DNA from: Cytauxzoon felis
Taxonomy: Eukaryota; Apicomplexa; Aconoidasida; Piroplasmida; Theileriidae
NCBI GenBank assembly: GCA_020283715.1
Contig: JAIQCW010000206.1
Coordinates: 1 to 64,000, forward strand
Direction of reading: 5' to 3'
DNA length: 64,000 nt
Shown here piece by piece: positions 8,471 to 61,443 of this stretch. Within the stretch, counting starts at the first letter, position 1. Each line of letters opens with the position of its first letter. Under the pieces are notes generated by a model. The model was not told the DNA's origin, did not search any database, and was given only the letters and a program-made list of their open reading frames with translations. The position numbers and the translations under genes were made by a program.

Positions 8471-11400
8471 TCAATCTCTACTCATTGCTCGTTTAAGATG
8501 GCACAGATCTCCTTCACTTACTTGCCTTACAGTTGCGTGATACAATCTACTGCGCTCTAACCCCATATATGCTTCTGGGGTAATTTTAAAATTATGGTGC
8601 TAAATAATTAAAATGTCGGGTATTATTGGAATTACGGTGTTAATTATCCCCATACATTATAACCATGTTTTGTATATATAAGATATTTACATTGATAACT
8701 TCCATGAAGTTTGTTGTTCATCATCGGTAAACATACAAATATTTACAATTGTTAACATAAGCAAGACATTAAATTGTACAATTGGGCCATTAAATCCAGT
8801 CTGCATTCCACCACCACCAAAACCAACAGCTTCCAATGTTTCTTCGACTGTATTGAAAGTAACGGAGAGTAATGCGGTCCTCATAGAATGGCCTCTAAAG
8901 AATTTACCAATTCTACCTTCCGGGAAATGCATAATACAGAAGAAAAAAATTATACACAGGTAGTATGGAATAACGAATACCCACGTAAGATGCCACCATT
9001 GATGTAAATTATCTCTCTTTTCAATTTGATGAACATACCATCTACCATTCGGTCCAAATGCTGGTTTACCTGGCCTATATTCAATATCCAATAATGCTAT
9101 AACGAATGTTGGAATGGATGAAATTAACAACGCCCACAATTCAATATCCTTCCCAAGATTTTCATCATCAACCAATTGGTACGGAGAAATACTCGGATAA
9201 AAAGCATAAACTGTACCCATGGATAGAGAAAGCATGCCAATGGGAGACCAATCCTTCCTAGCGTGATTGTCACCTGCAAATAATTTCTTTATCCCACCAT
9301 CTACATTTACAGCTGATATAATCGCGGCAGTTAAACCATATATTAAGAATCCCCAAATAATGCAATTAACATAAGAAAAAAAACTGTATAATATCAAACG
9401 GTATCCAGTCGCAATTGATACTATTAGAAACAATAGTAATAAAATGCCATTTACATATCCCTTGCCATTAACAAGTGATTTTTTACCTATGGTTTCACCT
9501 ATAATCGTAATACTTCCAACTATTATTACGCCCACGAATACACAAGCAGTAAGTACGTCTATAAATACCATGAGGAATAGAACGGGGAGTAACAATTCTT
9601 TATTCTTCTTAAATAATATACGAGAAAATATGCCGACTACAATAAATACAATCATCAAAGCACCAATACCTACAGACGCAACAAAATTAGCCACGGCAAA
9701 TTTTTTAGCATGATGCTGAGTTTCATTGGCATTTTTGCCAAAACCAGTAATTGCATTGGTGCCTGTAGAAAGGTCGCTCTTCAGTACAGTTTTATCACTG
9801 TCTATAGTAGTCCATGGGCCAAGTGTGGCCTTCTCTCGATGATTGGCGATGACAACACCAAAGAATATGGGAATAAGGGAAGTAAGGGCAAAATATCCTC
9901 CAAGATTCCTCATAGTTTTAAAAATATCTTCGTCATTTATATCAATTTCCGAAATCATCGGTTTTCCTACGATTACACCAGACGTTAGCATTGAGCCAAA
10001 TATAGATAAAGCCACTAAACCAGCAATTTTAACTTCATTATCATTATTAGGCTTGACAATTTCACCAATTGCGTTTTGAACAGTACCATTTCCAAACCAA
10101 CTAGCTTTACTGCTGTCAGCATTATTCATAACGTTGGCGATCCTTTTAACATCAGCTTCAGCATCACCCTCAGTATCACCTTGTTTACCAACTTTGTAAC
10201 CATCTGGTGAATGAACTCCATTTGCTATTAAAACCTTTTTTCTAACATACCATTCTGGGTAGTATGGACACATTATATGTAATAATTCATTCCCAGTCCA
10301 TAATACCGAATTAAAGAACAATAATATCATTGTAACTTTGATCTGATAAACAACTAATTTATAGTCATAGTCCTCCCAGTAATATATATTATGTAACCAT
10401 TTATAAAGAAAATGCATAACAAAGGTAAATCCTCCAGAGGTTGGCAAACCGGCTCCGTACATTGAGGTGTTAAAATTAACACTAAAACCAAATGATGAAG
10501 CAAATCCATTTATAAAAGTAAAGTGTATCATATTCCAATAGAAATAATCTAGATAACCAAAATCATCACCAGAAATAAACAAGTAATACGTCATAACGGA
10601 ACAAAGTGTCATTAACCACAAGAATATTATAGAAAGGTATCTCTTGAGATACATGCTATTTATAGTAGCCTCATTAACCCATGATACGACATTAGCTAAA
10701 AACGTGGAAGATAAACTGGCTAATTCCATAGGGTTATGGATCTTATAAATGAACAATGGTACAACGTCAGGCGGTAAATGGAAACGTTTAACGACATGTG
10801 GTGTACAGGATAACGCGATACGATGAGGAGTCAACATAACAAATCCGTTAGTGAACATTGCCGCCCTACCAATCCATAACTTTACATCCTTTTGAGTAGG
10901 ATCCTCATTTGTAACATTATCTCCAGGACCAGTATTCATTTCGTTAATCCATCATTCTCCCATTTTTTCTTTATTCCGAATTATCCCCCTCCCATTATTT
11001 AGTGAAATAATATATATACCAGTGAATTATGTGTCTAGTGTTAATAATTGTAGTACTTATAACTAATGGTAATTATAGTAATATTCATCAATTACATGCA
11101 TAATTTAAATAGAATAATAATATTAATTAAAGTTAACATTAGACAATTCATGTTACAATATAATCTACCATATAATTATGGTGCTATTGGAATAATTAAA
11201 TATTATAAAATTTGATATTTCATTTAATAACATTTTACAATACTCAAACAATACGAACTTTATAATTAAATTAATATAGACACGCATATTACAATCACTA
11301 AAACAAATTTTTAAACAACTGTAACATTATAAATCATTTACTACAACGGTTCTACCGGATTTAACAATATATCATATCAAATTTAGAATACAATTGTAAA

Positions 11401-14322: not shown

Positions 14323-14404
14323 CGACAGCTGCAGGATTTGAACCTACGCGGGCGACGCCCAACAGATTTCTAGTCTGTCGCCTTAACCACTCGGCCAAGC
14401 TGCC
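14323..14404 (-). tRNA. tRNA-Ser (anticodon AGA)
   Basis: An 82-nt cloverleaf on the minus strand: GGCAGCT acceptor arm pairing with AGCTGTC (one G.U), GGCCGAGTGGTTAAGGC D arm, anticodon loop CTAGAAA between ACAGA and TCTGT, a long variable arm (GGGCGTCGCCC) as in class II tRNA-Ser, and GGTTCAAATCC T arm. The A and B boxes are intact and no intron is seen. Confidence 0.95.
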
Positions 14405-14566: not shown

Positions 14567-14648
14567 CGACAGCTGCAGGATTTGAACCTGCGCGGGCAAT
14601 GCCCAACAGATTTCGAGTCTGTCGCCTTAACCACTCGGCCAAGCTGCC
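14567..14648 (-). tRNA. tRNA-Ser (anticodon CGA)
   Basis: An 82-nt copy about 160 bp from the first. It is nearly identical except for the anticodon loop (CTCGAAA), the variable arm (GGGCATTGCCC) and a T-arm position. The compensatory change in the variable arm keeps it paired, so both genes appear functional. Confidence 0.95.
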
Positions 14649-14805: not shown

Positions 14806-14898
14806 TCTTCCGCACGAGGTCGTCTTGCAGACAGCTCTCTATTTAACTCCCCCTCCGCTTCCCGTAGATCAGCTGCGGGTAGTCCACTTGAGGTCTAA
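14806..14898 (-). repeat. Modular repeat abutting the 3' end of the 14895 gene
   Basis: On the minus strand the gene's stop codon lies in GATTAGACCTCAAGTGGA, followed by CCCGCAGCTGATCTACGGG (M1) and the CTGTCTGCAAGACG hairpin. It is inverted relative to the M1 copy upstream of the same gene. Confidence 0.85.
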
Positions 14899-17831
14899 TC
14901 ACTGTCTTCCACTATTTCATTTTTACTTCGAAAATGTCCCATGAATAAATCCCGGATAACCATGGATATTATCATAAACACATATGTATATAACACGTTA
15001 AATGCGGCAATATCGTCATTAAAAAATCCACCACCTTGTGCTCCGGCCCCGGCAAACCCTATGGATTCAAGGCATTCTTGGAAGAAATTGAAGGTATTAC
15101 CAATGAGTCCAATAACAATAGGGTTGCCATTGATGAGTTTTGAAATAAATCCGTCAGGAAAATGTAATAACGTCATGAAAATGTAAATGCACAATAGGTA
15201 TGGTATAACAGCCAACCAGAAAAGGTGCCACAAGTAATAATGTTTTTTACTATTTTCACCCTTATTCCAATGTTTGCTGGGTCCACATTCAACACTCGCG
15301 ATTTCTTCAATAATATCCAATATGGCGACGCCGAAGTTCGGGATAGCCGCTGTAAATTGAACCCATAAATCGATTTTCTTTCCAATAACAGAATCAACTA
15401 GAGAGTATGGCGATATTGAGGGATAGAAAAAATAAACTGTTCCTAGGGAACAAGCGAGCATAGATATAGGAGACCAATCCGCAGCGTGACCATCATTCTG
15501 ATTAGCATCGAAAAGTTTATTAATACCCTTATTAGGAACTTCCTTTTGAGGATCGTGATCATCTGGATCAACCTTATCAAGATCAGTACTAATTGTCGTC
15601 CATCTATTCCCTCTTTTATGATATGCATAAGTGGTTGTTTGATTATTTGATTTCTTCACACAAACGATTAATGGAAACTCGTGATTAGGATCACCCGTGC
15701 TATCCTTATAATACACATATACCGCTGTAACATCTGAAATTTCTGGAATACCATTCAATTCAACGCCATTATGTTTAACTGAATCCAAATTGAATGTGGA
15801 TGTCGATGTATGCGCATATCTAACATATCCATCAGGTACAGGACCATCTTTAGAACCATCTGACTTAGAAACAGTAATTGTTGTATTGCCATCCGAACCT
15901 GTTTTATATATTTTCTTAGTATTTTCTTCAATCACACCAATTTCATCCGTCTTCTCTATATGAATGACATCCTGACCATTCGCCTTATCATTAAGCATAT
16001 CGAGATGCATTATGATATGATTTTTATGCTCGGCATTTTCAGGATTCTTTCCAGCAAGTTCAGTTTCATCAGACCAACTTATACTACCAGGATTAGTCAG
16101 GGCATCATTTTTAAAATATTTCCATTCATCACCACTGTTATCCTTACAAATGGTCATCAACAGGGGTTTTTCTACATTCTGAACTTTGGCATAATATACA
16201 TGAACATATTTGACATTAGTTTCAGCGTCATTTAAAGTTATACTATTGCTTCCGTTTTTATATGTAACGTTAGACATCTTTTTATATTTGCCGGCCTCAG
16301 AGCTCTTAACCTTATGCATATAACGCTTAAATCCATTCTTGGGATTGTTATTAATAAAAAAGACTTTAACATTGCCGGCTTCAATTTGAGAAGGATTTGT
16401 TATTTCCTCTCCAGTACTGTTATAACCGATAGCAGTCTTTTCAATATGTATATTAACACTAGATTCAGTACCATGTTCAGTTTTTAGATCGTCACCTCTA
16501 TCAGGTAGATTGGGATAACCTACATCTTCAGTACCACCAAGATTAAGGTTATTTTTAATTTCTCCGAGTTTTTGTGCAAATTTACCGTCTATATTTTCTG
16601 GGTTTTTATCACTAAAATTGGTAGCTTCTTGATTCCATGTATAAGGACCAGTTCCCGTACGTTGATACCATTTGTTATCATCACCCGTACCAACAGTGCC
16701 GTTCTTAGATAAACATATCAATAGCGGTTTCTCACGTTTATTGTTAGCATCCCCTATTTCAAAATATACGTATACGAATTGTTTATTATCAATAGTTCTA
16801 CCATTACTTAATTCAGGAATTTCTACTATCTGGCCATGTATTGTCATACGGTTTATCGTGGCACTAGTACTTTTTAGATCATGTTTAAAACATTTATATG
16901 TAGGAGAACCACCACTTTCATTTACTGCTTCAGGAGTAATTGTTCCAGTACCATCAGGTGTTGCTTTGTAACCAGTATTAGGTGTATCAGTTTTTTCAAG
17001 CTTAACTTCGTATTGGGCGGTGAGTGGATCAAGTTGGGGTTTAAGTTTTTCAGCAGTTCCAGCAGGGCTACCGTAATCAATAGCAGTTTTATCTTTACTT
17101 GGTTCAACTTTATCTTGCGTATCTGCGATATCCATTCCAATGTCTACTGTCCACATGGCAGATGATAAAAATAGTGTAATTACAGTAACCCAATATTGAA
17201 TTAATAAGATATTGCGGTCAAAATCTTCCCAATTATCTCTCTTGGATTTCCATTTACAATACTTATGTAAAAAGAATGTGAAAAATCCGGATGAAGGTAT
17301 GCCAGCACCATACATTGATGCGATAATGCCTTCTAATTTAAATGCAGAGGTACAATATAAACCATTAGTAAACGTCATGAGAATAATACTCCAAAAAAAA
17401 TAATCAAAGTATCCATAGTCACTACCGGAATATAACAAAATGAATGACAAGACGCCTGAAAAGAACATTAGCCAAGTAAACACAATAGAGAAACTTCTGT
17501 AAACTCTCCTGTGAGCTGCAGCCCATCTACATATCCATGCCGTTATATTAGCTATTAATTGACCTATTAAACCACTCAACTCAATAGGGCTATGGATCTT
17601 ATATATAAATAAAGGTACAACATCGGGTGGCAAATGATAACGTTTAAGAATATGAGGAGCACAAGTCATTGCAATTCTGTGAGGTGTAAGCATGATGAAA
17701 CCAGCAAGAAACATTGATGCTCTACCCATCCACTTACGTGCATTGTTAGATATACCAACTGTAGTAGTTTTCTTATCCGGTGTAAACCATGTTTTTATTC
17801 CTACCATTTCCCTTCCATTTTTCCTAGTCAA
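14895..17831 (-). CDS. Multi-pass membrane protein with three FAINT-like repeats
   Basis: A 978-residue ORF. The likely start is the second Met (MVGIKTW, near 17807), which aligns with the 23834 paralogue. The N-terminal half (about 1-255) has TPHRIAMTCAPHILKRYHLPP, FIYKIHSPIEL and about six helices with IIASMYGAGIPSSGFFTF. Residues about 255-760 form three beta-rich units with [13 protein letters not shown] and IHIEK motifs (FAINT/DUF529-like). The C-terminal half (about 765-978) is WSPISMLACSLGTVYFFYPSI and more helices. It is the closest paralogue of the 23834 gene. It lies between TilS and the tRNAs rather than inside an intron, and is flanked on both sides by inverted M1 repeat modules. 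The topology (central array on one side of a membrane) is inferred. Confidence 0.85.
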   Translation of the reverse strand: MTRKNGREMVGIKTWFTPDKKTTTVGISNNARKWMGRASMFLAGFIMLTPHRIAMTCAPHILKRYHLPPDVVPLFIYKIHSPIELSGLIGQLIANITAWICRWAAAHRRVYRSFSIVFTWLMFFSGVLSFILLYSGSDYGYFDYFFWSIILMTFTNGLYCTSAFKLEGIIASMYGAGIPSSGFFTFFLHKYCKWKSKRDNWEDFDRNILLIQYWVTVITLFLSSAMWTVDIGMDIADTQDKVEPSKDKTAIDYGSPAGTAEKLKPQLDPLTAQYEVKLEKTDTPNTGYKATPDGTGTITPEAVNESGGSPTYKCFKHDLKSTSATINRMTIHGQIVEIPELSNGRTIDNKQFVYVYFEIGDANNKREKPLLICLSKNGTVGTGDDNKWYQRTGTGPYTWNQEATNFSDKNPENIDGKFAQKLGEIKNNLNLGGTEDVGYPNLPDRGDDLKTEHGTESSVNIHIEKTAIGYNSTGEEITNPSQIEAGNVKVFFINNNPKNGFKRYMHKVKSSEAGKYKKMSNVTYKNGSNSITLNDAETNVKYVHVYYAKVQNVEKPLLMTICKDNSGDEWKYFKNDALTNPGSISWSDETELAGKNPENAEHKNHIIMHLDMLNDKANGQDVIHIEKTDEIGVIEENTKKIYKTGSDGNTTITVSKSDGSKDGPVPDGYVRYAHTSTSTFNLDSVKHNGVELNGIPEISDVTAVYVYYKDSTGDPNHEFPLIVCVKKSNNQTTTYAYHKRGNRWTTISTDLDKVDPDDHDPQKEVPNKGINKLFDANQNDGHAADWSPISMLACSLGTVYFFYPSISPYSLVDSVIGKKIDLWVQFTAAIPNFGVAILDIIEEIASVECGPSKHWNKGENSKKHYYLWHLFWLAVIPYLLCIYIFMTLLHFPDGFISKLINGNPIVIGLIGNTFNFFQECLESIGFAGAGAQGGGFFNDDIAAFNVLYTYVFMIISMVIRDLFMGHFRSKNEIVEDSD

Positions 17832-17857
17832 TCCAAATTATCCCCCTCGGATTATTT
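17832..17857 (-). promoter_or_regulatory. Conserved 5' box of the membrane family (14895 gene)
   Basis: The minus strand reads AAATAATCCGAGGGGGATAA then TTTGGA immediately upstream of the ORF start. Another 20 bp upstream lies the fixed junction with an M1 module (CTACGGGTTAATGA). Confidence 0.65.
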
Positions 17858-17875
17858 AAAAACATATATGTCATT

Positions 17876-17960
17876 AACCCGTAGCTGATCTCAGGGAAGC
17901 GAAGGGGGAAGTAAATGGAGAGGCTCCATGCAATGGAAAAGATGGACCTCAAGTGGAGAG
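17876..17960 (+). repeat. Modular repeat upstream of the 14895 gene
   Basis: CCCGTAGCTGATCTCAGGG (M1), then the CCATGCAATGG hairpin and GACCTCAAGTGGA. It is fused to the gene's 5' region at the same base as in the 23834 and 58642 genes. Confidence 0.85.
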
Positions 17961-21882: not shown

Positions 21883-24800
21883 ATGGAGGTATTAAAAGAT
21901 GAATTGTATAGTATTGATACATTAAGTGCATTAGAAATCAATAATAAGAGTATAGAGCGCAGGGATATATATTCCATATTGTTATTACTATTATTATATA
22001 CTATACAGGGTATACCTATAGGATTACGTGAAGCTATACCTATTGTAATTAATAAAAGAGCATCATATTCAGAAATCGCATTCTTTTCATTAGCTGGGAT
22101 ACCATTTTGTTTAAAATTAGTATGGGCACCCATATTAGATTTTGTATATATAAAACGTTTCGGAAAGAGGAAAACATGGCTAATACCTGTTCAATTATTA
22201 TGTGGTATATTATTGTTATATGGTAGCATTAATAATAAAATAGATATATGGTTAGGAATTGATGATAATCCCGTAAATACTACAGCATTAATGATATATT
22301 TCCTATTATTACATTTTCTAGTAGCTACACAAGATATAGCTGTAGATGGATGGGCATTAACTATGTTACCATCTCATTTAAAACATCATGCATCAACTTG
22401 TAATGCTGTTGGACAAGCATTTGGTATAAATATTGCATTTATCGGATTCATTACACTAAATACACAAGAATCTTGTACAACAATCTATCGTATTTGGGTT
22501 AAATTTTGTAAATTTTTTTCAATCGCATATCTAAACATCGATCCAGATAATGAAATTGTAGGACCCTTTGTTACATTGTCAGGTTTTACAAAATTCTTTG
22601 GGATCCTAATCATATTATGTACACTAATCATTTCATTTAAAATGGAAACCGAAGATAAACCAACCATAGAAGAACCAGATATCGAACTTTCTAATATTAC
22701 AATCGTCAAAAATGAACTCAGCAATAACAAAACCATATTTGGTATTTATAAAACCGTCAAAAAGGTTTGTTGTTGAGAAATAATACGACGTCTCCTTTTA
22801 TACTTATCCTTTCAATTCCAACTGAGGTCAGTCTTGCAGACAGCTTCTTCTATTTAGCTCCCCCTCCGCTTCCCTGAGATCAGCTACGGGTTCCACCTGA
22901 GGTCAATAATCACTGTATTCCAATTCTTTATTTTCACCTCGAAATTTGAAGGAAATCCTGAATTTCTGGGGAAACTCCTGAAGATTGTGGAACGACTATT
23001 AAATGAATTTCTGATCTCAATACTTCATTGAAGAGGGACATTAACGCTTTATCTATTATTATCATCATCCTCACTTCATTCCAATTTATATTCATTGAGA
23101 TATCTTCTCAAACATGGATTCCATCACTTTATCCTTATCTCGTCGAGATTAGTTTTATAACCTCAAGTGGAACCCGAGAACGATCTACGGGAGTTTGAGG
23201 GGGAAGTAAATAGAAGAGCTGTCTGCAAGAGGAAGAGAGTTGGATTGGATCTCAGTGGAAGTGCCGCATGACAAAAAGGCAATCTTGACATATCACTCAT
23301 ACTATGGAACAATATTTATTTCGATTCCAAATTCTATGCATGTTTTATTTTTTAGATTTCATTGTTACGTCCTGTTCGAACATTAATTTTCGCATTGGTT
23401 ACGAAAACTATTTATTCATGTTTGACTGAAGTATCGGATTTAAAGTTGTTAGAAAAGGGTTTGCCAAAGGATGTGTTGGCATTAATGTCTCCTATAATGG
23501 TCCCTATAGAGATTATCGCACCCGCAATTGTATGTTGGATAATTAAATATTTTTAATCATAAATATTTTCCTTATAGATTGCACGATATATTGAAGTATA
23601 TACAGTAACAGGATTAATAATAATATGTCTAAATTTAAAAATCGTATCATACATATTCAATCTAAGTAAGTTTATCGAGTATTATACTTATAGGTTCTTG
23701 AATTGTCCTGCCGTCAGCCTCCTCTATTTACCTCCCTCCGCTTCACTGAGATCAGCTACGGGTTAATGATATAATTGTTTTTAAATAACGGGAGGGGGAT
23801 AATTTGGATTGACTAGGAAAAAATGAAAGGAAAATGGTTGGAATAAAAACATGGATTTTTGGTGGTACAAATAAAACTCCTCATAGTAGTATAACTAACA
23901 ATGAACGTAAGGCTCATGGTAGGGCATCAATGTTTTTTGCTGGTTTCATCATGTTGACCCCTCACAGAATTGCCATGACTTGTGCTCCACATATTCTTAA
24001 ACGTTATCACTTGCCACCTGAAGTCGTCCCCCTTTTTATTTATAAGATCCACGCTCCAATGGAGCTTAGTGGTTTAATAGGTCAATTATTGACGAACATA
24101 ATTTTATGGATATGCAGATATTCTAATGCTGATAGAAGGATATTTAGAGGTTTCTCTATTAGTTTCACTTGGCTAATGTTCTTTTCAACTGTTTTATCAT
24201 TCATCCTTTTATACTCTGGTAGTGACTATGGACATTTTAACTACTTTTTCTGGAGTATTATCTTAATGACCTTTACAAACGGTTTATACTGTTCTTCCGC
24301 ATTTAAATTAGAAGGTATTATTGCGTCCATGTATGGTGCCGGGATTCCTTCATCAGGATTTTTCACCTTCTTTTTACATAAATTTTGTAAATGGTCATCC
24401 GTTAGATTTGATTGGGAAGATTTTGACCATTCTATCCTAAAGGTCCAATTTTGGGTCACTGTAATTACTTTATTTATATCTTCAACCATATGGACGGTGG
24501 ACATAGGCATCGATATATGGGATACACAGTCTGGCGGTACAAGCAACACATCTATTGATTTTGGGAATTCAGCTGGGACTTCTGGTAAACTTCAAAATCC
24601 ACTTGAAGGTCTCAAAGACAAATATGAAGTTAAGCTTGAGAAGGATACCCAATACAAAGCACGCCCTCTATCCGGTACTACTGGTGAAATTACTGTTGAA
24701 CAAGTAAATGAACAAACTCAACACGGTGGCAACACAAAATATAAAGGTTATAGACATTATATCACAGGTGTAACTAACACTGACAGGGTTAATCGTATTA

Positions 24801-37300: not shown

Positions 37301-37326
37301 AAATAATGGGAGAGGGATAATTTGGA
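37301..37326 (+). promoter_or_regulatory. Conserved 5' box of the membrane family (37358 gene)
   Basis: AAATAATGGGAGAGGGATAA then TTTGGA, about 31 bp before the start. Confidence 0.65.
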
Positions 37327-40300: not shown

Positions 40301-40679
40301 ATATGGTAACGAAAAATTGTACGCAATTTATCACGCTACATGGATATTTTTCATTCCATATATAATATGCATTTACATTTTCTTCTCTATGATGCATTTT
40401 CCCGATGGACGAATTGGTAAATACTTCAGGGCAAGTGTATTTAGAACTGGGGTTCTATGTGTATTCTTTGCCTGGGTACAGGAATTTATGGAAGCTGTAG
40501 GATTTGGTGGAGGTATGGGTGCACAAGTGAGTGGTAGATGTGGAGATACTTATAATGATGATGCTGGAACGATATTTGGATTTATGTTTCTTGTATTTAT
40601 GATAGTATCCATGTTTACCGAAGATTTGTACATGTTAATATCCAGGAATTCTTTTGGAAGTATTTATAAAAAATTATAA
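37358..40679 (+). CDS. Multi-pass membrane protein with four FAINT-like repeats; interrupted N-terminus
   Basis: An acidic N-terminus (ITEDEDDD) in 37358-37489 joins exactly in phase across a 35-nt GTAAGA...CAG intron (37490-37524) to ISMFLAGFIFFTPHRIAITC...FVYRIHNLMEL. A second frame change lies near 37700-37755: SENSKRC ends in a stop, while MLKNCVSGISIWLMF continues in another frame. A GTAATA...AAAG intron of 53 nt (from 37698) restores phase but removes residues conserved in relatives, so a true frameshift is also possible. From 37743 the ORF (978 residues) carries the remaining N-terminal helices, four FAINT-like units ([17 protein letters not shown]), then WSPIFLVALSLGTVYFFYPAI and the terminal helices. 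The gene is intergenic, next to the TBP-like gene. Confidence 0.75.
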
Positions 40680-47200: not shown

Positions 47201-50200
47201 GAATAATAATAATCCCAAGTTTGGTTTTAAGCGTTATATGCATAAGGTTAGGGGAACTAATGCTAATGAATATAGGAAGATGAGTAACACTGGACGTAAA
47301 TTTAAAAATAATAATAGTGATATATCTAGTATAAGTGTTAATGGGAATGTCAATTATGTATATGTATATTATGGAGGTGCCCAGAGTAACATACCATTGT
47401 TGATAGCCATATGTAAGGATAATAGTAGTAATTGTACATGGAAATATTTTAAAAATGGTAATCCTAGACAGCCTAATAGTACAACTTGGTCTGAGGAAAA
47501 TAGTCTTAATAATAAGAATCCTGACGGTTATGTTGATGACAAGAATCATATAATAGTTGAGTTAGATAAATTGAATGATAAAGTGATTCAGAAGACTGTA
47601 ATTCATTTAGAAAAGACCGACACGAAAGGAGTAAATACTAGTCGATATACTACTGGTCAGAGTGCTGATAAAACAATTACTGTTGAGAAGAATGAGGGCA
47701 GCGGTTCTTCTCAAATGGTACCTGAGGGATATGTGATGTATAAACATACGCTTGGTACTTCTACTAGCGATCCTAAATTTAAACACAATGGCTTTGAATT
47801 GAATGGGATTAATCCTGATAAGGGTGTTACAGCAGTATACGCATATTATCGTCAAAGTCCGGATGATTCTGACCACGAATTTCCACTGATTGTATGCGTC
47901 AAGATAGGTTCCAATAGTTGGAGTTATTATCAAAGGGGTAACCGATGGACACATATAACAGATGTCAACCTTGATAATCAAGACCCGGAAAATCTACAAC
48001 CTGAAGATCTTAAAAAACTTCAAGATAAACTTGGCGAGGTTAAAGGGAAGTTTGAAGTTAAGCTTGAGAAGAGTGCTTCTTACGGATTTATTAGTCAGAT
48101 TGATGTTGAAAATGCCACGGTTACAGTTGATGGATATAAAGGATATAAACATCAAAAGGGATCTGGTGGTAGTAGTAACACATTTAAGATTGAAAAGTTT
48201 AGGCATGATGGAAATGTTGTGGGAGGTTTCACTTTACCTATTTCAGGTGTCGAAGAAGCTAATGTGTATTATAAGGATGATGATTCTGAGCTTAAGAAAC
48301 CTCTACTTCTGTACACAAAGGATAATAATAGTAATCCATATGCAATTTATGGAAAGGGTACTAGGAATTTCCAAATGAAATGGTGGAAGATTGGAAAACC
48401 GAGTAAAGATGTACCAACTGAACCTCAACTTAAACGTCATCTCGAAATGTTGTTGAATATACAGGGTACTTTTAAAGAATTGGTATATTTCGATAATAAG
48501 GAGCATTGGTCTCCTATTTTAATGTTATCGTTTTCGCTTGGAACCATTTATGCCTTTTACCCCACGATATCCCCATATTCTTTAATTGATCCCGAGAGAG
48601 CGGAGAAGATTGATTTGTGGATTGCGGTTACATGTGCAATACCCAACTTTGTATTGGCTGTAATGGATACATTAGGAGATAGAGGTCATGGTCCAGGTGC
48701 TAGATGGGAGAATGACGGTGATGTAAAAAGAGAGTGTTATCATTATGTATGGATTATAGGAGGTATTCCTTATTTAATATGCCTATATGTATTTTTCACT
48801 ACACTCCACTTTCCTGAAGGTTGGATTGGCCGTCATGTAAAGGATAATTTATATGTGGTTGGATTTTTTGGTGTAACTTTCAATACCGTTCAGGAATTGA
48901 TGGAATCTACAGGTTTTGGTGGTGGTGATAAACAAAGTTATGATGGATTTGTTGGATCAATCAGCCAGTTTTCTGTATTATTAATGTTAATAACTTGTGT
49001 ATCTACAATGTTCTCATGTGATGGGTATTTGAAAATAAGACATTTAATATGGGGATAAAATACACCATAATTATGGGGACGCCACATAATTTTTCCTCTC
49101 TACACCATTTATCCATCCCAGGTCCAATCACTATCTTCACCACCTGAGGTCCAATCCAACTCTTCTTCCACTCGCCTGGTGGCTTCTTCCAATTACCTAT
49201 CTCTAAAGAGTAGAGCCACTCCCAGAGATCGTGGCGGAAGTAAGGATTGGACCTCAAGTGGAACCCGTAGCTGATCTCAGGGAAGCGGAGGGGGAAGTAA
49301 TTAGAGAAGCTCCATGCAATGGAAAAGTTGGACCTCAGGTAGAACGGCTAGTAGAATTACATCAGCTTAATGTTTAACAGATTATAGTGGAATTTGACTT
49401 TGTCGTAGATGATGTTTCATGTATTGTGTAATGATATTAAATTTTAATGTTTTAGGTGTATGGAAGTCATCGGAAGTGAATATAATAAACGAGTATAATT
49501 TTTTAACCGCTAAACCTATCGTATATTTGGTGAATTTATCAGAGGATGATTATATACGTCAAAAGAATAAATGGTTACCAAAGATTGCAAAATGGGTACA
49601 AGATAATAATAAAGGGCCAATAATACCATTCAGTGCTCAATTTGAGCAATCATTGGAAGCATTCCCAAATGATGATACCAAAAAATCATATTTAAAGGTA
49701 TATATAAGAAAAAATTTTATTTTATTCATCATGTAAATTTACTCAGGAAAAAAACACCACAAGTAAAATTCATAAAATAATTACAAGTGGATACACATCA
49801 TTGCAACTCATACACTTCTTCACATGCGGACCTGATGAAGTCAAATGCTGGACTATCAGAAATGGAACAAAAGCACCTCAAGCTGCTGGTATGTTCACTA
49901 ATATAAATATCTCCACTCTAGGTCCAATCCTACTCTCTTCGTCTTGCAGACAGCTCTCCACTTGAGGTCCAATCCGCATCTGTTCCACTCGCCGTGGAGG
50001 CTTCCTTATTTACTTCCCCCTTCGCTTCCCTGAGATCAGCTGCGGGTTTTCCACCTGAGGTCCAATCCTGACCTTCAGCCACGATCTCTGGGAGTGGCTC
50101 TACTCTTTAGAGATAGGTAAATAGAAGAGGCCACCACGGCGAGTGGAAGAAGAGTTGGATTGGACCTCAGGTGGAGAAGAGCTCTCTGCAAGACGACTTC

Positions 50201-50538
50201 GAGTGGATTTGGGATTATAAAAATCATTGTTAATATGATCAATTTATTTAATAGGTGTTATACATTCGGATTTTGAGCGTGGTTTTATATGTGCTGAGGT
50301 ATATAACTATCAAGATATTGTAGAATGTGGTTAGTGGATATATATAAGATCTAATTCTATTTAATTTATAGGATCAGAAGGTGCTGTAAGGGCTAGTGGT
50401 AAATATTTACAAAAAGGGTATCTATTTTAAAATTTATTTATTTATATCAAATTATATTTTATTAGGAAAGATTATGTTGTACAAGATGGTGATATAATTT
50501 TCTTTAAATTTAATGTAACGAATAGCAGTAAAAAATAA
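44262..50538 (+). CDS. OLA1: Obg-like ATPase 1 (OLA1/YchF), split by a nested gene
   Basis: Nine exons (44262-44475, 44522-44545, 44588-44760, 44801-45038, 49456-49697, 49747-49888, 50255-50329, 50372-50417, 50466-50538) join in phase to about 408 residues (human OLA1 is 396). Motifs: [19 protein letters not shown] (P-loop), [28 protein letters not shown] (G3), [20 protein letters not shown] (NxxE nucleotide motif), [20 protein letters not shown] and [17 protein letters not shown] (TGS domain). Intron 4 (45039-49455) is 4.4 kb and contains the complete 45513-49058 membrane gene on the same strand; the other clean introns are 42-58 nt. The stop is 2 bp from the stop of convergent CWC15. Confidence 0.95.
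45130..45405 (-). repeat. Modular repeat, left part of OLA1 intron 4
   Basis: CCATTGCATGG hairpin, reversed M1, separator, a small CCGGGTAGA-type degenerate stretch, reversed M3 of the variant GTTTACGGGGAGGTAATT, then the GCTGACGGCAGGA hairpin. Confidence 0.85.
45449..45476 (+). promoter_or_regulatory. Conserved 5' box of the membrane family (45513 gene)
   Basis: AAATAACTGGGGAGAGGG then ATAATTTGGG, about 36 bp before the start. Confidence 0.65.
45513..49058 (+). CDS. Multi-pass membrane protein with five FAINT-like repeats (nested in OLA1 intron 4)
   Basis: 1181 residues, the longest family member. The N-terminal half (about 1-210) has [31 protein letters not shown] and about six helices ending [14 protein letters not shown] Pro-rich hinge ([11 protein letters not shown]) precedes five beta-rich units (about 220-990) with [19 protein letters not shown] and KPLLLYTK motifs. 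The first and last units are of the type also found in the truncated copies at 1-4324. The C-terminal half has [21 protein letters not shown] and terminal helices. It is flanked by mirror-image repeat clusters within the OLA1 intron and has no intron of its own. Confidence 0.85.
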   Translation: MSGKWLGITCMFLNGFVMLTPHRIAMLCANHVVKRFHLPQCTVPLFIYKIHNPMELSSLTSTFLANVVGWVSDAAFGDDGGKKMNFKRIISCIAIWIMFLATVVSYFMFISGEEYGNFELFYWSVVSITFANGFSSNFGFGVNFNGTVYGAGMPASSFVTFIVHKSYNYFYNKYFWDEYDYMLVVVQYAFTSFFLALTGALWTWDQYNEMNKPPPPTPPLPPTIQVDISQNTTYDSGRIKVTKMRDVTVGSNNVKFNFYVHTLTTGGKFTLSKDIKYNASGGTAQLSGETSDIPNVSEVYYYKESNGNNGALKIKTSSDAKIFYEANVTQSGPWTNQATTPPGDAELQGLVNEIKDQVEIKLEKDPRYISALTGNKITVEAVNDTLNPPKYKGFKHPVPNGSTINYISIRNQPISFTPAITENDLQGKRFLFVYYENSDGNYEKPLLICLSDTGGQSSGNKWYQRQIDSGGSGGYTWSEDNSLSAKDPNQINTFSKKLDGIKQLLTNDTGYPVLVDRNDDLPNEQGSENNVNIHIEKKDFGYDSSGSEKTVSDISAGHIKVFLNNNNPKFGFKRYMHKVRGTNANEYRKMSNTGRKFKNNNSDISSISVNGNVNYVYVYYGGAQSNIPLLIAICKDNSSNCTWKYFKNGNPRQPNSTTWSEENSLNNKNPDGYVDDKNHIIVELDKLNDKVIQKTVIHLEKTDTKGVNTSRYTTGQSADKTITVEKNEGSGSSQMVPEGYVMYKHTLGTSTSDPKFKHNGFELNGINPDKGVTAVYAYYRQSPDDSDHEFPLIVCVKIGSNSWSYYQRGNRWTHITDVNLDNQDPENLQPEDLKKLQDKLGEVKGKFEVKLEKSASYGFISQIDVENATVTVDGYKGYKHQKGSGGSSNTFKIEKFRHDGNVVGGFTLPISGVEEANVYYKDDDSELKKPLLLYTKDNNSNPYAIYGKGTRNFQMKWWKIGKPSKDVPTEPQLKRHLEMLLNIQGTFKELVYFDNKEHWSPILMLSFSLGTIYAFYPTISPYSLIDPERAEKIDLWIAVTCAIPNFVLAVMDTLGDRGHGPGARWENDGDVKRECYHYVWIIGGIPYLICLYVFFTTLHFPEGWIGRHVKDNLYVVGFFGVTFNTVQELMESTGFGGGDKQSYDGFVGSISQFSVLLMLITCVSTMFSCDGYLKIRHLIWG
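49115..49350 (+). repeat. Modular repeat, right part of OLA1 intron 4
   Basis: Separator, CCACTCGCC hairpin part, forward M3, separator, forward M1, CCATGCAATGG hairpin and closing separator. The order M3-M1 mirrors the M1-M3 order on the other side of the nested gene. Confidence 0.9.
49915..50210 (-). repeat. Modular repeat in OLA1 intron 6
   Basis: CTTGCAGACAG and CCACTCGCCGTGG left ends, reversed M1, separator, reversed M3, CCACGGCGAGTGG and further right ends. Confidence 0.9.
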
Positions 50539-50540
50539 AT

Positions 50541-51611
50541 TCATGCGATATACTTTTGAAGAAATCTCTTATGAAACTCACTCCTAACCACATCGTTAAT
50601 ATACCTATAATGAAGTTAATTTCTTAAATAATTCCTATACTCAATCCACACTGTTCTCCACTCGTCATACCACCTGAGGTTACATTCCTGCCGTCAGCTT
50701 CTCTATTTACTTCCCCCTCCGCTTCCCTGAGATCAGCTGCGGGTTCCATTTGAGGTTACATCCAATACATCCTTAGCACCATCTTCCATCATTCCCATGA
50801 TGAATGATCCATCACTACCCTTCTCACCGCCACGATCTCTGGGAGTGGCTATACTCTTTAGAGATAGGTAATTGGAAGAGCCACCACGGCGAGTGGGAAG
50901 GAGAGTAGTATTGGACCTCAGGTGGAATAGCAAGGGTGAAAAAAATTATTACTATTACATTGTTTATAAATATGTGGACATACTGTGGTTTTTGTTTGGT
51001 TTCTTTAGTGTAATTTTTGAATACTACATCTTCATCCCATCGTTTGTATTGTTTGTTTGGATTTAATAATGGATTATTATTTAATATTCTTTGTCTATTC
51101 TCTTCAGATTCAAATTCTTCTTTTTGTTCTTTAAGACGTATTTCTTCCTTTTCTTTTTTAATTTTTTCTAATTCTCTTAGGAGAATCATTTCTTCTTCAT
51201 CATTGTTTACATTTTTATCATCTGTAACCTCATCATCTTCATCTTCTGGAAATGCGTTAATATCTTGATTCAATAATTTTGTAGCGTCTTCTAGAGATAG
51301 AAAATTCTTAGTTACTCCAACCTTTTCTTCAATAAAAAGTTTAGTTTTATGTTCAGATTCACTTGATTCAAGTTTATCTTTCAATATTTTCTTTTGATCA
51401 TTTGATTTCTGTAATTTAGTACCATCTTCCTCTTGAAATATCGGCGCTCGTCTTTTTAATTCTTTATGTGACGGCAAATCTTTACTAGAAATTATAGATG
51501 ATCGGCTATATGCTATAAATTATAGATGAGATGATGATTTAATTCTGGATACTCACAGTCTATACTTTGGCCAATAGCATTATGCCATGTAGGTCTATGT
51601 GCTGTCGACAT
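50541..51611 (-). CDS. CWC15: Spliceosome-associated protein CWC15
   Basis: Three exons (51611-51557, 51512-50984, 50604-50541) join in phase to about 215 residues. The N-terminus MSTAHRPTWHNAIGQ and SSKDLPSHKELKRR match the CWC15 start (TTAHRPT..., SSRDLPSHTKIKYR). The middle is acidic and coiled. The C-terminus PNKQYKRWDEDVVFKN...QYINDVVRSEFHKRFLQKYI is diagnostic (RRWDDDVVFKN...FVNDTLRSEFHKKFM.KYIK). It is a core NTC-related spliceosome component. Intron 2 (50605-50983) carries a modular repeat. The coding end is 2 bp from the OLA1 stop on the other strand. Confidence 0.9.
50655..50930 (+). repeat. Modular repeat in CWC15 intron 2
   Basis: On the plus strand: CTGCCGTCAG, reversed M1, separator, a spacer shared with the TBP-like insertion, reversed M3, CCACGGCGAGTGG and separator. 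Confidence 0.9.
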
Positions 51612-54988: not shown

Positions 54989-57900
54989 ATGGAAGTTGAC
55001 AATGAGATCACATTACATAATATCGCAGATCAATTGGTATATTGAATTATTTCAACACATTTACATATACTAGAAACATCGTCTTCAAGGCACATTTTTA
55101 TGGCCTCTATTGGTTGATTTAGAGAGTAAATTATCGGCAGCTAATAAAAATCCTAAAGATATTGTTAATATAAACAAATGGTTTAAAGAAGAGTTGGAAC
55201 GTTTGGTTGATTCCAATGATGAAAATGTTGACTCTCGTTATATTATGGTTGCACAAAGCTTATTAGATCTTGTAGATCTGAAGGCTAACTTTACATCTAG
55301 GACTGAGGAAGAGATTATTATACACACTGCACAGTATATCAACGATGGCTTATTCGAAATTAAAAAGGGATCCGAAGTCGATAATAAAGATACATTTACT
55401 CTAGGTGGGTTAACGTTTGAGAATTTCCCTATAACTCTCGAGAATATCACTTCATCTCTACCCTCAGATGTGATTGATAATGTGCCATACTACAAGTGTC
55501 ATAATTCCACACCAACATTGGTAGAGGAGGCCATAAATGATAAGATATTGAGATTTTCCAACTTGTTCAAGGATTTCTGTCTATCCAAGGGTCTAAACTT
55601 TACAATAAAGCCGATGCGTTCATCAAGTGATGTAAGTTTCGTTTCATTTCATTACGTTACATCTAGACGGATGTCACGATTTACGGAAGGATAGGCTCGG
55701 AAGACGAATCATTTATTGATGAATTGAATGTTACACTTCAAGGTTTAAAGGAATTAATCCAATATTTAATTTCTTGTAGGTACTACCACACACGACTTTG
55801 GAATGAAGGTACAAATACAGAATTTAGTACGTTTTAACGATTATTCATTTCATTATTAAATTTATAGCAACAAGTTGAAGAGCTCTGTGTATTCCCAGGA
55901 CAAATGGTACGTTGAATGGATGAATTCTTAAAGCTGTTAAATTATTCCGTTCTGCTATTTTTCTGTTAATAGTTCCCTGTGATTGTGGATATGTGATGAA
56001 TCTTTAGAACTCAAATAACAGGAGGAGGATAATATGGAGTAATGAAAAATGGATATAAGGATACATTAAGATGAATCAAATTACAAGTGTTATAGAACCC
56101 GGAAAACTCAACAGCTGGAAAGATGGACAACATGCTGCTTCTGTATTCCGTCACAAACTCGCAATGTTTCTTACTGGCTTCATCATGTTAACGCCTCATC
56201 GCATTGCCATTTTATGTGCTCCGTATATTGTGAAGAGATTCCATTTGCCTCCATCCGTTGTTTCTCTATTCATCTACAAAATCCACAACCCTATGGAATT
56301 GGCTAGTTTAATAGGAACCACGATACAAGTTGTAACCACTACAATAATAACTGCAATATGTAAAAACATAGAAACAAAAGGTTTATTTGGTGTAAAAAAG
56401 AAAATTGCAGTTATGATTATCAGAATAGTAAATGGAGTGATCCTATTGAAGCCGATAAGGATACCTCTATTACTCAACTTAAGGCACTGTTTTCTATTAT
56501 ATTTGCATGGATTATGTTTTCCAGTAGTATACTCACGTACATTTTCTTTGTTACTGGTGATGATTATGGATACTTTAATAAATTCTTCTGGAGTGTAATT
56601 TTTAATGCCTTTACCAATGGTATGTACTCATCTATTTCATTCAGTGTCAATACAAATGCCGCTATTTATGCTGTTGGATTACCATTATCTGGTGCCTTTA
56701 CATTTATTTTCAATAATATTTGTCGTTATATTCATGGCAGATGGGATTGGGACGATTATGACTACACGAGAGTTCAATTACAGATTATATTCACCATTTT
56801 AATTTTATTTATAACCGCTGGTTGGTGGACATTTGATCAAGTTTGCCAAATCACAGGAACAAATGGTAAAGCTAAAGATAGTGGTGGTAGTGATACAGGT
56901 AATACTACAGTTGCTGCAACACTTCCTGGATCATCCGATATCGATGAACTTTTTAACAGTGAAGATTATCAAGGTTTTCGTCACTGGTCTCCAATATTAA
57001 TGCTGGGTTCCTCGCTTGGCTCAGTTTATGCATTTTATCCTGCAATTACACCATATATGCTCATGGATATTGATGAAGCTAACGATCTCGATCAATGGAT
57101 CCAATTCATATCCTCTATACCAACACTTGTAATAGGAATATTGGATGAGATTCCCGACGGCAAAGGTCCAGGTGGTATTAGCGCAGGCAATTGGGGGGAA
57201 TTTGAAAATAAATTTGGAGTAGATGTGAAGAACACTGTTTGTGTTGCATTAAAAAATCTAAACACCCACATGAATGGTAAGAATTATACCGAACAGAGTA
57301 ACCCAAATAAAAGTATTAATTATACTGCTAGTGATGGTAAATTCGGACAGAAGGTTGACGCCGCTAGAAAGAAGGTTGATGACAACGTTACAGGCGCTGA
57401 TCCTGTACAAAATGCGACTGATCTGAAAAATACTCTAAAGTCCAGTGGCGCGATAAAACAGGTTGTTAACTACTGGGATAGACATATTATTCAAATTAAT
57501 AGTCAACATAAAAATCATAATAATAATGAACCAGCCAAGGATGCAATTGCTGTGATAAAAGGATATACAAATCCTTCTCAACCGGCTCATAGTACTATAG
57601 GTAATCACGCATCTGCTTCCAAAGCTCGTCCTCAAGCCGGTAACTGGAACACTGGTGGTAAGGGTAGATGGTATTGGCATCCTATAGGCTGGGGACCATT
57701 TATTCCATATATTTTATGTCTCCACATCTTCATATATCTAATGCATTTTCCCACTGGATATGTTGCAACCTTTCTCCATTCTAAACAGTGGTTACTGAAA
57801 TGTATATGTATATCCTTCAATTTCTGGCAGGAGATAATGGAAATTATTGGATTTGCTGGGGCAGGTAAACAATCAAATAAGTCAGGTTATGCTATGGTTT

Positions 57901-60900
57901 ATAACAGTTCTGTGGGTACATTCAACAACTTTTTCTTCTTTTTTGTTATGATTATTTGCATGTTTACCGGCGATGTACAGAAAGTAGTATGGAAGTTGTT
58001 GATCTTTCAAAATTATAATATAGGGTAACTGGGGATAATTAACACCATAATTCCAATAATGCCCAATATTTTTATTATTTTGCACCATAATTTTAATATT
58101 ACCCCACTTTCACATATGTTATATTACTATGAAATTCTATCCTTCAGTTTGATTATCTTCATTATCACATTATAGGCTGCTATAACTGGGCGTTGTTTTG
58201 AAGATAATTTTGGCATTCGATACGTTACAAGTAATATAAGTTTGTATTAATTCACATTTTAATTTCATTTTTCCAATTTAGGATGTGGAATACCTGTTGA
58301 TATACCAATTTCAACACTTACAGCACAAAATAAGGTGAATAAGTGATATAAATTATTGTAAATTATAAAAATCAATAGTTTAAAAAGGATAACGTACATA
58401 TAATTGTCGTTAATGGATGTTTACTCACAGATAAATTCGAACAAACAAATTTCCGTATGTTTTAATTTTATTTGAATATCATTACTTCCATCTGAGTAAT
58501 ACCATTGCATGGAGCTCTTCTATTTACCTCCCCTCCGCTTCCCTGAGATCAGCTGCGGGTTAATGGTATCATTATTTTTAAATAACGGGAGGAGCATAAT
58601 TTGCAGTATAATGAAGGGATATTAGGAAAATATAAAACAAAATGACACAACAAGATTTTACTAAACCAGTATATCTGGATACTTATAAGTTTGATGCTGA
58701 TGAAAAGGTTGCTGCAGCTCGTCACAAACTAGCGATGTTTCTCACGGGATTTATTATGTTAACGCCGCACAGGATTGCTGTCTTATGTGCTCCTCATCTC
58801 GTGAAGAGATTCCATTTGCCTCCAGCTACAGTTCCATTATTCATCTACAAGATACACAATCCTATGGAATTGGCCAGTTTTCTTGGAACCGTTATACAAG
58901 TTTTGTTATCTGCGATATTCGCGGGTTTGTCACAAATTCAAGGAGTACAACAACAACTAGCTAATGGGTTTGATGAAGATAATGCTCATCGATCAAGATA
59001 TTTGAAACTTAAACCTCCTCCTAATGATACTGATACCTGGGCTATTGGTGAAAAACCTGATGCTGTTATAACTAATTGTAGGAGGGTCGCATCTATTATA
59101 TGTGGCTGGTTTATGTTTCTCACCTCTATATTCACATTCATCTTCTTCATTTCCGGCGGAGATTATGGTTACTTGGGCCAATTTTATTGGAGTGTTATAA
59201 TTATGGCCTTTGCGAATGGCATTTACTCATCATTCTCCTTTGGTGTTAATGTAAATGCTGCAATTTATGCCGTTGGTTTACCCCTCTCTGGCTTCTTCAC
59301 ATTTGTCTTCCACAACTGTTGCAAATATTTGTCCAACAAATTCAATTGGGAGGATTATGATTACACTTTTGTTAAATTATTAATAATCTCCACCATGTTA
59401 ATTCAATTCATCACAGCATCCTGGTGGACCATGGACCAATACTTCCAACTTGGTACCGGTACTAAAAACGATAGTAAAGATCCTGGTGCCGTTATACCTA
59501 ATAATTCATCTGTTGGGGAAATGTTCGGGATACCACGCAAGAAGATTAATAATAATTATACGAGTAGTACTAATTATGATGCTAAGCAAGCATGGTCACA
59601 TTGGTCCCCAATTTTAATGCTCTCGATGTCATTAGGGACGGTCTATGCGTTCTATCCTGCGATAACGCCCTATCAATTAATGGATGTGGAGGATGCAAAT
59701 AATACTGATTTTTATGTACAATTTATTTCGGCTATACCGACGTTGGTGATTGGTGTATTAGATGAGATTGACTACGGCCCAGGTAGTGGTGACGGATATA
59801 ATAGCAACAATAGTGCTGATCAAGGTATTTTTCAGAATACTAGATACAACTGGTATGATGAACCGAAATGGAATTGTTTTTGGATAGCAGCTGTACCTTA
59901 CGTCTTATGTCTCCACATCTTCATCACGATGATTCATTTTCCTGATGGTTTCATTTCAACATTTTTCCATTCAAGGCCACGTTTATTACAAGCCATTTGT
60001 GTATCCTTCAATTTCTGGCAGGAAATTTTGGAGATTGTAGGCTTCTCAGCCGCAGGAAAACAGAGTAACCCGAAGGCGGTTACCAGTGATGCTGCTGGTA
60101 ATAATGCTGCAGAACAGATTGCGTATAACGGCCACGTGGGAATGGTTAATAATTTCTTATTTTTATTTACAATGGCTATTACAATGTTCGTAGGCGATGG
60201 GTATTTGAAATTTAATGAAATTACTATAAAAAACTATGTCATCTAAAATTGATATTGGGCATCTGGGGTAATTTATCCCCATAAATTCCATGATATACAT
60301 AATAATTATATTATTTATACATAATTTAGAATTACCCCACACTTAACTATGGGGTTTTATACCTGGAGGCGATCTACGGGAGCTGGAAGGGGAACTAAAT
60401 AGAAGAGCCACCACGGCGAGTTTAAAGGAAGGATCTAATAAGGGTTTCACATAAATATATAGTTCATGTATATCATAAATTGAAGCGTGACAAACCTCAT
60501 GTTGTAATATTTTTGGGTCCATTTGTTAGTGTAAATCAAGTTGCTGTATGTTTTTAATTATTCTTATATATTTCTTTAGGTTGAAGGTCAAAATTTATCT
60601 AATTTGGGTGATTTGACATTTCTTTATAGAAAATTTTTATCTGATTTATCTAATGTTGTTCAAGTATGATGTAATTATTATTATTATTATTATTATAGTT
60701 TGGCCCCATGAAATATACAAAATTTATTATTGTACCCCACTGTTATGATGGTAATTTTATATTTCTATTAATGTTAATACATTTCCCCATTTAGTATTAT
60801 TAAGTTATCCATTACCACAACCACCTTTAAATTGTCAATCATCCCCATTGTACAATAAAACATATCCCGATAATGTAATTTATTGTGTTTTTATCCCCAG

Positions 60901-61443
60901 AAAATATTTTAATTACAGATTATATTTTTATCTAATCCGGGTTTTATTAAGATTAATGAATTATTGATATGTATAACATCATGTGATCCATTAAGTGGTA
61001 TAGGTAAGCTTATATATAATATGAATTGAAATATTTCAGCTAAAAATATGGTCTGTAGACCTAATGATTTGATGGAGCGTTTGATATGTCAACAATTATT
61101 ATATCAGCGGTCATTATTTCCTGGTTATCCATCATCAAGGCTACCATCAGAATATGCTGTGGACCATTCAATGTTGCGTCAATTGGAGTTTTCAAATGAG
61201 ATGGTACCAGATGTTATTTTATTTACGAGTTCATTACATTCGGAGCCGTTTATTACACTTACAAACTCACGGGCATTTATAAGTTGTCACAATAATAGTT
61301 TGAGCGTTAAAAACACATTAATCCAATCTGTAACAGAGATTTACATTACACCTCAGTCATCAGAATCTCAAGTTGATGGCCCAATACAGACAAATGATGT
61401 AGACAAAAGAGTAACATTATCGCTATGTATACTCAAGGAGTGA
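54989..61443 (+). CDS. POLA2: DNA polymerase alpha subunit B, with two genes nested in its introns
   Basis: Fourteen exons (54989-55036, 55074-55631, 55667-55742, 55780-55808, 55868-55906, 58176-58230, 58282-58334, 58379-58454, 60463-60545, 60580-60663, 60699-60750, 60795-60874, 60919-61003, 61040-61443) join in phase to about 573 residues (human 598). Matches: VTIYGRIGSEDESFIDELN (OB region), VEELCVFPGQM, HVVIFLGPFVSVNQ, KYTKFIIVPHCYD, VLLSYPLPQPPLN, IIFLSNPGFIKINELLI and QLLYQRSLFPGYPSSRLPSE...MVPDVILFTSSL. This is the inactive phosphoesterase/OB-fold subunit that tethers primase to Pol alpha. Introns 5 (55907-58175) and 8 (58455-60462) contain the 56071 and 58642 membrane genes on the same strand; the remaining introns are 34-59 nt. 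Confidence 0.93.
56013..56038 (+). promoter_or_regulatory. Conserved 5' box of the membrane family (56071 gene)
   Basis: AAATAACAGGAGGAGGATAA then TATGGA, about 32 bp before the start. Confidence 0.65.
56071..58028 (+). CDS. Multi-pass membrane family protein with inserted helical domain (nested in POLA2 intron 5)
   Basis: Two exons (56071-56391 and 56424-58028) join in phase across a 32-nt GTAAAA...CAG intron to about 641 residues. The family signature [32 protein letters not shown] is present. Helices continue after NSKWSDPIEADKD...FAWIMFSSSILTYIFF. No FAINT-like array lies in the central loop. Instead an Ala/Lys/Asn-rich helical domain of about 150 residues, starting GNWGEFENKFGVDVKN, is inserted later, after WSPILMLGSSLGSVYAFYPAI and VIGILDEIPDGKGPGG. 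It resembles the GNYG-initiated domains in the truncated copies at 1-480 and 2970-3422. Terminal helices follow (FIPYILCLHIFIYLMHFP). Modular repeats do not flank this gene. Its 3' tail matches that of the 8687 gene. Confidence 0.85.
58028..58105 (+). promoter_or_regulatory. Conserved 3' tail of the 56071 gene
   Basis: GGGGATAATTAACACC, ATAATTCCAATAAT, then GCACCATAATTTT..ATTACCCCA, in the same order and spacing as after the 8687 gene. The tail contains short inverted GGGG-TAAT/ATTA-CCCC arms. Confidence 0.6.
58495..58565 (-). repeat. Modular repeat upstream of the 58642 gene
   Basis: CCATTGCATGG hairpin and reversed M1 ending CTGCGGGTTAATGG, the same gene-repeat junction as in the 14895 and 23834 genes. 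Confidence 0.85.
58580..58605 (+). promoter_or_regulatory. Conserved 5' box of the membrane family (58642 gene)
   Basis: AAATAACGGGAGGAGCATAA then TTTGCA, about 36 bp before the start. Confidence 0.65.
58642..60246 (+). CDS. Multi-pass membrane family protein, minimal form (nested in POLA2 intron 8)
   Basis: 534 residues, single exon, about 11 hydrophobic segments. It is the simplest complete member: N-terminal half [32 protein letters not shown], ...ANGIYSSFSFGV...YAVGLPLSGFFTFVFH; a short linker of about 50 residues (285-335) at the site where relatives carry FAINT-like arrays; C-terminal half [21 protein letters not shown], ...PTLVIGVLDEI, and terminal helices. A six-plus-five helix pattern with NG..S.FG...Y.VGLP.SG resembles equilibrative nucleoside transporters (SLC29). 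That assignment is inference from pattern only. It is co-oriented with POLA2, which surrounds it. Confidence 0.85.
   Translation: MTQQDFTKPVYLDTYKFDADEKVAAARHKLAMFLTGFIMLTPHRIAVLCAPHLVKRFHLPPATVPLFIYKIHNPMELASFLGTVIQVLLSAIFAGLSQIQGVQQQLANGFDEDNAHRSRYLKLKPPPNDTDTWAIGEKPDAVITNCRRVASIICGWFMFLTSIFTFIFFISGGDYGYLGQFYWSVIIMAFANGIYSSFSFGVNVNAAIYAVGLPLSGFFTFVFHNCCKYLSNKFNWEDYDYTFVKLLIISTMLIQFITASWWTMDQYFQLGTGTKNDSKDPGAVIPNNSSVGEMFGIPRKKINNNYTSSTNYDAKQAWSHWSPILMLSMSLGTVYAFYPAITPYQLMDVEDANNTDFYVQFISAIPTLVIGVLDEIDYGPGSGDGYNSNNSADQGIFQNTRYNWYDEPKWNCFWIAAVPYVLCLHIFITMIHFPDGFISTFFHSRPRLLQAICVSFNFWQEILEIVGFSAAGKQSNPKAVTSDAAGNNAAEQIAYNGHVGMVNNFLFLFTMAITMFVGDGYLKFNEITIKNYVI
60360..60425 (+). repeat. Partial modular repeat downstream of the 58642 gene
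   Basis: The M1 variant CCTGGAGGCGATCTACGGG in forward orientation plus the CCACGGCGAG hairpin, inverted relative to the copy upstream of the gene. Confidence 0.8.

Follow-up and report, generated by a model that had tools for sequence, protein, structure and literature searches.

In the piroplasmid Cytauxzoon felis, members of a dispersed family of putative membrane-protein genes lie inside introns of unrelated housekeeping genes, and in every resolved case member and host are read from the same strand. We analyzed a stretch of 64,000 nucleotides (nt) (the window; positions 1–64,000 of contig JAIQCW010000206.1, here C120, in GenBank assembly GCA_020283715.1) and followed the family through the assembly (8,623,106 bases, 181 contigs). 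We think it probable, with reservations, that gene cassettes borne by repeats have invaded existing introns time and again and that antisense copies were lost through selection.

Nested genes in the window

A preliminary description of the window had placed five complete family members inside single introns of four host genes, all on the host strand. Both claims hold for four of the five, namely one member in OLA1, one in SLC33A1 and two in POLA2, where the introns are GT-AG, the joined exons are in frame and host homology continues across. The fifth, assigned to a TBC gene, drops out as intergenic (see below). The spliced OLA1 protein aligns with PDB 5ee0 over residues 6–394, gap-free at the junction (about residue 203), and its member-bearing intron has a donor score of 4.13 and an acceptor score of 1.44. 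For SLC33A1 (donor 2.40, acceptor 1.86), the match to PDB 9pvm covers residues 26–462 and is unbroken over the junction near residue 382; this match and the Pfam match come from an earlier exon model, which read part of intron 26871–26961. That small 91-nt intron is best placed at 26871–26961, in frame and GT-AG, with weak sites (0.24 and –0.61). In POLA2, thirteen exons between 55074 and 61443 join in frame, every intron is GT-AG, both member-bearing introns included, and the match to PDB 8g99 (residues 201–502) covers both member junctions. The first POLA2 member consists of two frames meeting near 56380–56410, which reflects either a frameshift or a short intron (about 30 nt).

Nested members and their hosts across the genome

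With the second POLA2 member (58642–60246) as query, 81 of 240 candidate places were scored and gave 146 matching stretches, which merged by eye into at least about 77 family places genome-wide. We examined 40 members (the window and 25 further stretches) and four more by their flanks only, 44 in total, chosen mostly as the best-scoring; orientation played no part in the choice. The gene finder, at its final settings, over-joins neighbouring genes, and its posteriors were not taken as proof. Sixteen members lie in introns with host homology on both sides and four are probable cases; 14 were called intergenic on gene-finder models, and ten remained without a call, with a contig end nearby or a host that was not recognised.

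The 16 firm members occupy 14 introns of 12 hosts, whose two flanks match one known protein, and nesting by insertion thus extends well beyond the window. RARS carries two member-bearing introns with homology on both sides (junctions INVSPQ|GFLTF and NVGEKS|GWLDN); it has one such locus in the assembly and a distant paralogue on C71, and POLA2 has a single matching locus. For the CIAO1-like WD40 host, a match to PDB 3fm0 (residues 78–253) covers the junction at residue 182. In the SWI3 host, SWIRM precedes the junction and Myb and the SWIRM-associated region follow it, and in the Josephin host either side matches by itself. Adding the second side raised the score from 97.1 to 160.2 bits for adaptin, from 23.0 to 47.1 bits for a pinin-like host and from 20.0 to 74.2 bits for NOP9; the last two each hold two members in one intron. 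PRP28 shows homology on both sides of its member. APN1 does so as ordered pieces, and its intron borders stay open because about 86 residues at the junction fall outside the model. Judged from sequence, the 16 members in these 14 introns of 12 hosts are nested genes in the usual sense of a complete gene within one intron of a host gene. Not all of them are complete, however: those in the CIAO1-like and SWI3 hosts are the C-terminal domain alone, and the adaptin member ends before that domain does.

Nesting in PIG-V, TMA7, COG3 and NOM1 is probable. The sole domain found in NOM1 (MA3, residues 529–604) precedes the junction at residue 674, and the NOM1 member occupies two reading frames.

Strand of the nested members

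All 20 in-gene members (16 firm, four probable) are sense with respect to their hosts, and no antisense case occurs among those resolved (two-sided binomial test over the 12 hosts, P-value ∼5e–4). The same-strand bias noticed in the window extends genome-wide. A count that does not depend on the naming of hosts agrees with it. Comparing each of 40 members with its nearest predicted exons, per interval, we found 21 with both flanks on the member strand versus one with both flanks on the opposite strand (P-value 1.1e–5). Among the mixed intervals, same/opposite occurs eight times and opposite/same once. Because the genes beside a same/opposite interval converge regardless of how the member is oriented, these counts concern place and not orientation. 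Ordinary genes gave 18 opposite/opposite, 10 opposite/same, 3 same/opposite and 2 same/same intervals, but the gene finder's joining of neighbours on one strand spoils this count as a control.

Two candidates for antisense nesting were rejected. The flanks of C33:78677 appear to belong to different genes, the start of one and the end of another, and an apparent C-terminal exon of RPA1 precedes the member on C130.

Host introns and splice sites

According to the preliminary description, host introns are otherwise 25–60 nt long. This is borne out for introns with neither repeat nor family member, which have a median of 44 nt (n = 264), and fails for introns with a dispersed repeat, with a median of 393 nt (n = 81); introns with a family member have a median of 2184 nt (n = 20). 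All three medians rest on models from the over-joining gene finder. The 16 member-bearing introns scored for splice sites, a set outside which the APN1 and PRP28 introns fall, span 0.8–4.9 kb; the 0.8-kb case holds one remnant and the others measure 1.6–4.9 kb. In 15 of the 16, both scores lie within the range of 190 short reference introns (donor mean 2.10; acceptor mean 1.64, standard deviation 1.17). The exception is the Josephin donor, which scores –1.44, so that this intron border is doubtful. The host splice sites around members are thus ordinary. The single repeat-bearing intron read by eye (49889–50254) has non-repeat sequence at both ends, and the element therefore seems not to supply the splice sites there.

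Leader and repeat arms

A leader pattern of 28 bp occurs 27 times in the genome when up to three mismatches are allowed, and its reversal not at all. In an ungapped count, at least 19 of its 28 positions match within 160 bp of the first ATG in 27 of 40 members. In 12 members a repeat arm, P, stands ahead of the leader, at 17 bp in seven and at 20–22 bp in five.

Arms P, Q and R were surveyed in 290,905 bases. We found 301, about one per kilobase, and 240 of them form inward-facing pairs less than 450 bp apart. These 120 pairs are high-copy, short, non-coding elements with terminal inverted repeats, that is, miniature inverted-repeat transposable element (MITE)-like. Most join Q with P or R (100); 13 join P with R, and seven have identical arms (five P/P, two R/R, no Q/Q). 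The arms differ in 113 pairs, and P and R resemble each other. Of the elements, 90 are in predicted introns, 29 are intergenic and one overlaps an exon; the intronic share is overcounted because the gene finder over-joins. Relative to the host, 49 have Q on the 5′ side and P or R on the 3′ side, and 25 are reversed. One element folded as DNA was mildly more stable than its shuffles (z = –2.08; 6 of 100 shuffles as stable).

Around 39 members, the nearest arms face inward in 11, outward in 20 and are mixed in eight; among the 11 is a member on C27 whose 5′ arm is 1286 bp away. As a separate observation, the C-terminal frame of the SLC33A1-nested member enters a P arm (26620–26740, + strand), so the repeat is the source of its last coding residues.

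The protein family and recurrence of insertion

A Pfam search of the five window members at E-values up to 1 gave no match for four of them and one sub-threshold, unrelated match for the fifth; a protein search found no match at an E-value of 0.001. Simple hydropathy predicts eight candidate helices in a 534-residue member, three of them within the C-terminal domain. An AlphaFold model of a member was poor (mean predicted local distance difference test score, pLDDT, 43.8) and unfit for a fold search.

In a tree of 37 members, the in-gene members are scattered. One clade unites members from introns of pinin, POLA2, adaptin and RARS with one intergenic member, and another unites members from introns of POLA2, NOP9 and RARS with others. 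Since closely similar copies occupy unrelated hosts, insertion has probably recurred. A three-member clade (pieces C38:1, 10196; C94:147500, 13910; C101:32500, 16356) is read as intergenic throughout, and a variant sequence follows the leader in it.

The TBC locus and other features of the window

The claimed nesting in the TBC gene (junction 11501/8574) is unsupported because the RabGAP-TBC domain is whole ahead of the junction (residues 82–308 of 348), the acceptor is weak (–0.81, against the reference mean given above), and the claimed exon begins within a 3′ trailer found behind other members (5 of 39 by a strict count). In favour of the junction are the donor (1.29) and a joined frame that stays open for 34 residues. 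Two further window members are likewise read as intergenic (Table 1).

Elsewhere in the window, two adjoining tRNA-Ser genes with anticodons AGA and CGA lie at 14323–14404 and 14567–14648 (– strand). A helicase-like frame at 6130–8457 (+ strand) stays open through repeat elements at 7132–7263 and 7678–7785, which may be spliced out or translated. Long frames at 22–4315 (– strand) carry a repeated extracellular-type unit that by eye resembles the variable loops of the members at 23834–26767 and 45513–49058.

Table 1. Positions of host exons, family members, leader and repeat arms in the 64,000-nt window
Feature	Position	Strand	Evidence or remark
OLA1 host, exons 5′ of nested gene	44262–45038	+	Spliced protein against PDB 5ee0
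Family member in OLA1 intron 45039–49455	45513–49058	+	Long open reading frame, both family domains
OLA1 host, exons 3′ of nested gene	49456–50538	+	Spliced protein against PDB 5ee0
SLC33A1 host, upstream exons	21883–23665	+	Pfam Acatn; PDB 9pvm
Family member in SLC33A1 intron 23666–26825	23834–26767	+	Leader 23780–23807, 0 mismatches
SLC33A1 host, downstream exons	26826–27807	+	Best model 26826–26870, 26962–27099, last exon from about 27677
POLA2 host, exons before first nested gene	55074–55906	+	GT-AG, in frame; putative first exon near 54990
First POLA2 member, intron 55907–58175	56071–58028	+	Donor 3.28, acceptor 2.77
POLA2 host, three exons between the nested genes	58176–58454	+	GT-AG, in frame; PDB 8g99
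Second POLA2 member, intron 58455–60462	58642–60246	+	Donor 0.90, acceptor 1.45
POLA2 host, last exons	60463–61443	+	Pfam DNA_pol_E_B 291–504 spans second junction; in frame
P arm 5′ of second POLA2 member	58513–58559	+	17 bp before leader
Conserved 5′ leader of second POLA2 member	58577–58604	+	Leader pattern match
R arm 3′ of second POLA2 member, inward-facing	60362–60408	–	Repeat-arm survey
P arm, 3′ side of SLC33A1 member, within its C-terminal frame	26633–26678	–	Repeat-arm survey
MITE-like inverted-repeat elements, window-wide	e.g. 50702–50881, 49185–49305, 62115–62240		Repeat-arm survey
Family member 3′ of TBC gene, read as intergenic	8687–10939	–	TBC domain, acceptor and trailer evidence
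Intergenic-read member between two inward-facing P arms (14838–14879, 17878–17916)	14895–17837	–	Gene-finder model
Intergenic-read member, leader 37298–37325	37486–40679	+	Gene-finder model

Mechanism

The nesting, the continuity of the hosts, the sense rule in resolved cases, the arms and the leader are all supported directly. In the reading that we prefer, a cassette would comprise the conserved leader (probably promoter and 5′ untranslated region), one mostly uninterrupted frame and, often, inward-facing MITE-like arms on both sides. Such cassettes, bounded or flanked by repeats, would have spread at the DNA level into pre-existing introns of unrelated genes many times, and may have moved with the repeats. 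The host pre-mRNA would still be spliced over the enlarged intron, and the nested gene would be a separate transcript started at the leader. Antisense copies would have been selected away because, in essential genes, they would give rise to antisense RNA or make polymerases collide.

Several observations weigh against this reading. Gene conversion between older copies could give a false impression of recent spread. Where the nearest arms face outward (the 20 members noted above), a member has complete elements at its sides and is not borne within one. Bare elements carry a 2:1 orientation bias of their own. C33:78677, one of the four members studied by flanks only, has opposite-strand genes on both sides and changes the flank count to 21 to 2, and two members at the start of contig C147, counted among those without a call, are antisense by the gene finder. 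Host continuity is also uneven: the second side of adaptin has no independent match by itself, nor does that of PIG-V; nothing useful matched the second side of COG3; and adding the second side lowers the Pfam score of PIG-V from 59.6 to 50.0 bits and that of TMA7 from 27.4 to 23.4 bits.

The sense rule could also arise if members needed the sense transcription of the host, through open chromatin, read-through or pre-mRNA processing, and only sense copies were functional and kept. Avoidance of divergent gaps (the single opposite/same interval against eight same/opposite) fits such a dependence and may equally mean that promoter gaps are intolerant of insertion. However, the leader precedes in-gene and intergenic members alike, which suggests that members have their own promoter, and 14 of the 44 are read as intergenic. 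We regard this dependence as unlikely.

Strand-specific entry, for example by transcription-coupled integration or by an RNA-borne intron copy followed by reverse splicing and reverse transcription, would yield sense-only arrival and with it the 20 of 20. We tried copying of whole introns as an explanation and rejected it, since the intron ends beside members differ, by eye, from host to host. Moreover, bare elements are found in predicted introns in either orientation (49 and 25), evidence against a repeat-borne route restricted to the sense strand, and the carried genes have the P arm on their 5′ side, the rarer orientation of the element. Sense-only arrival thus seems quite improbable to us. 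That members stand between separate genes whose exons were misjoined is likely for TBC and in keeping with the over-joining gene finder, but in 12 hosts both flanks are homologous to one known protein, a result independent of that joining, and as a general explanation we consider it very improbable.

Relation to known systems and significance

Large dispersed families of multi-membrane-helix proteins that combine a variable part with a conserved C-terminal one are described from related parasites, namely Tpr/Tar of Theileria and Family 3 of T. equi, and we liken our family to them by description alone. Tpr/Tar is defined by a conserved C-terminal region with typically five predicted membrane helices (PMC10730637), and the 109 members of Family 3 are spread over all four chromosomes (PMC10730637, PMC3505731). 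The words ‘intron’ and ‘nested’ do not occur in the main text of PMC10730637, nor ‘nested’ in the available text of PMC3505731. The cf63 antigen of Cytauxzoon felis, a piroplasmid multi-membrane-helix protein as our members are (again by description alone), has 12 predicted membrane helices and is a Tpr homologue by its authors' BLAST (PMC10730637). Consistent with the preliminary description, which knew of no such system in piroplasmids, we found none among the listed titles and abstract openings of the open-access literature.

Animal nested genes likewise lie whole within an intron of another gene. However, some 63% of nested genes in humans lie on the strand opposite to the host (PMC3192792), whereas the 20 in-gene members here are all sense and belong to one family. 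The repeats resemble MITEs and introners, short inverted-repeat elements abundant in introns, the latter described in the alveolate Amoebophrya (PMC7789003), but differ in that the arms are unlike in nearly all inward-facing pairs (113 of 120) and that some pairs carry a gene.

A wider view, which we offer tentatively and hold to be doubtful, is that the family is a mobile gene cassette for which the introns of essential housekeeping genes serve as chromosomal address, always in line with the transcription of the host; copies would there be protected from deletion and opened for expression together with the host.

With ordinary introns of about 44 nt, whole genes of 1.5–3.5 kb inside introns of POLA2 or RARS were not to be expected. 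If our reading is true, essential genes and family members of this genome may be split or missing in automatic annotations, and one could trace, insertion by insertion, how a candidate surface or transport family has spread. The strict sense rule would then provide a natural test of how host and guest transcription coexist.

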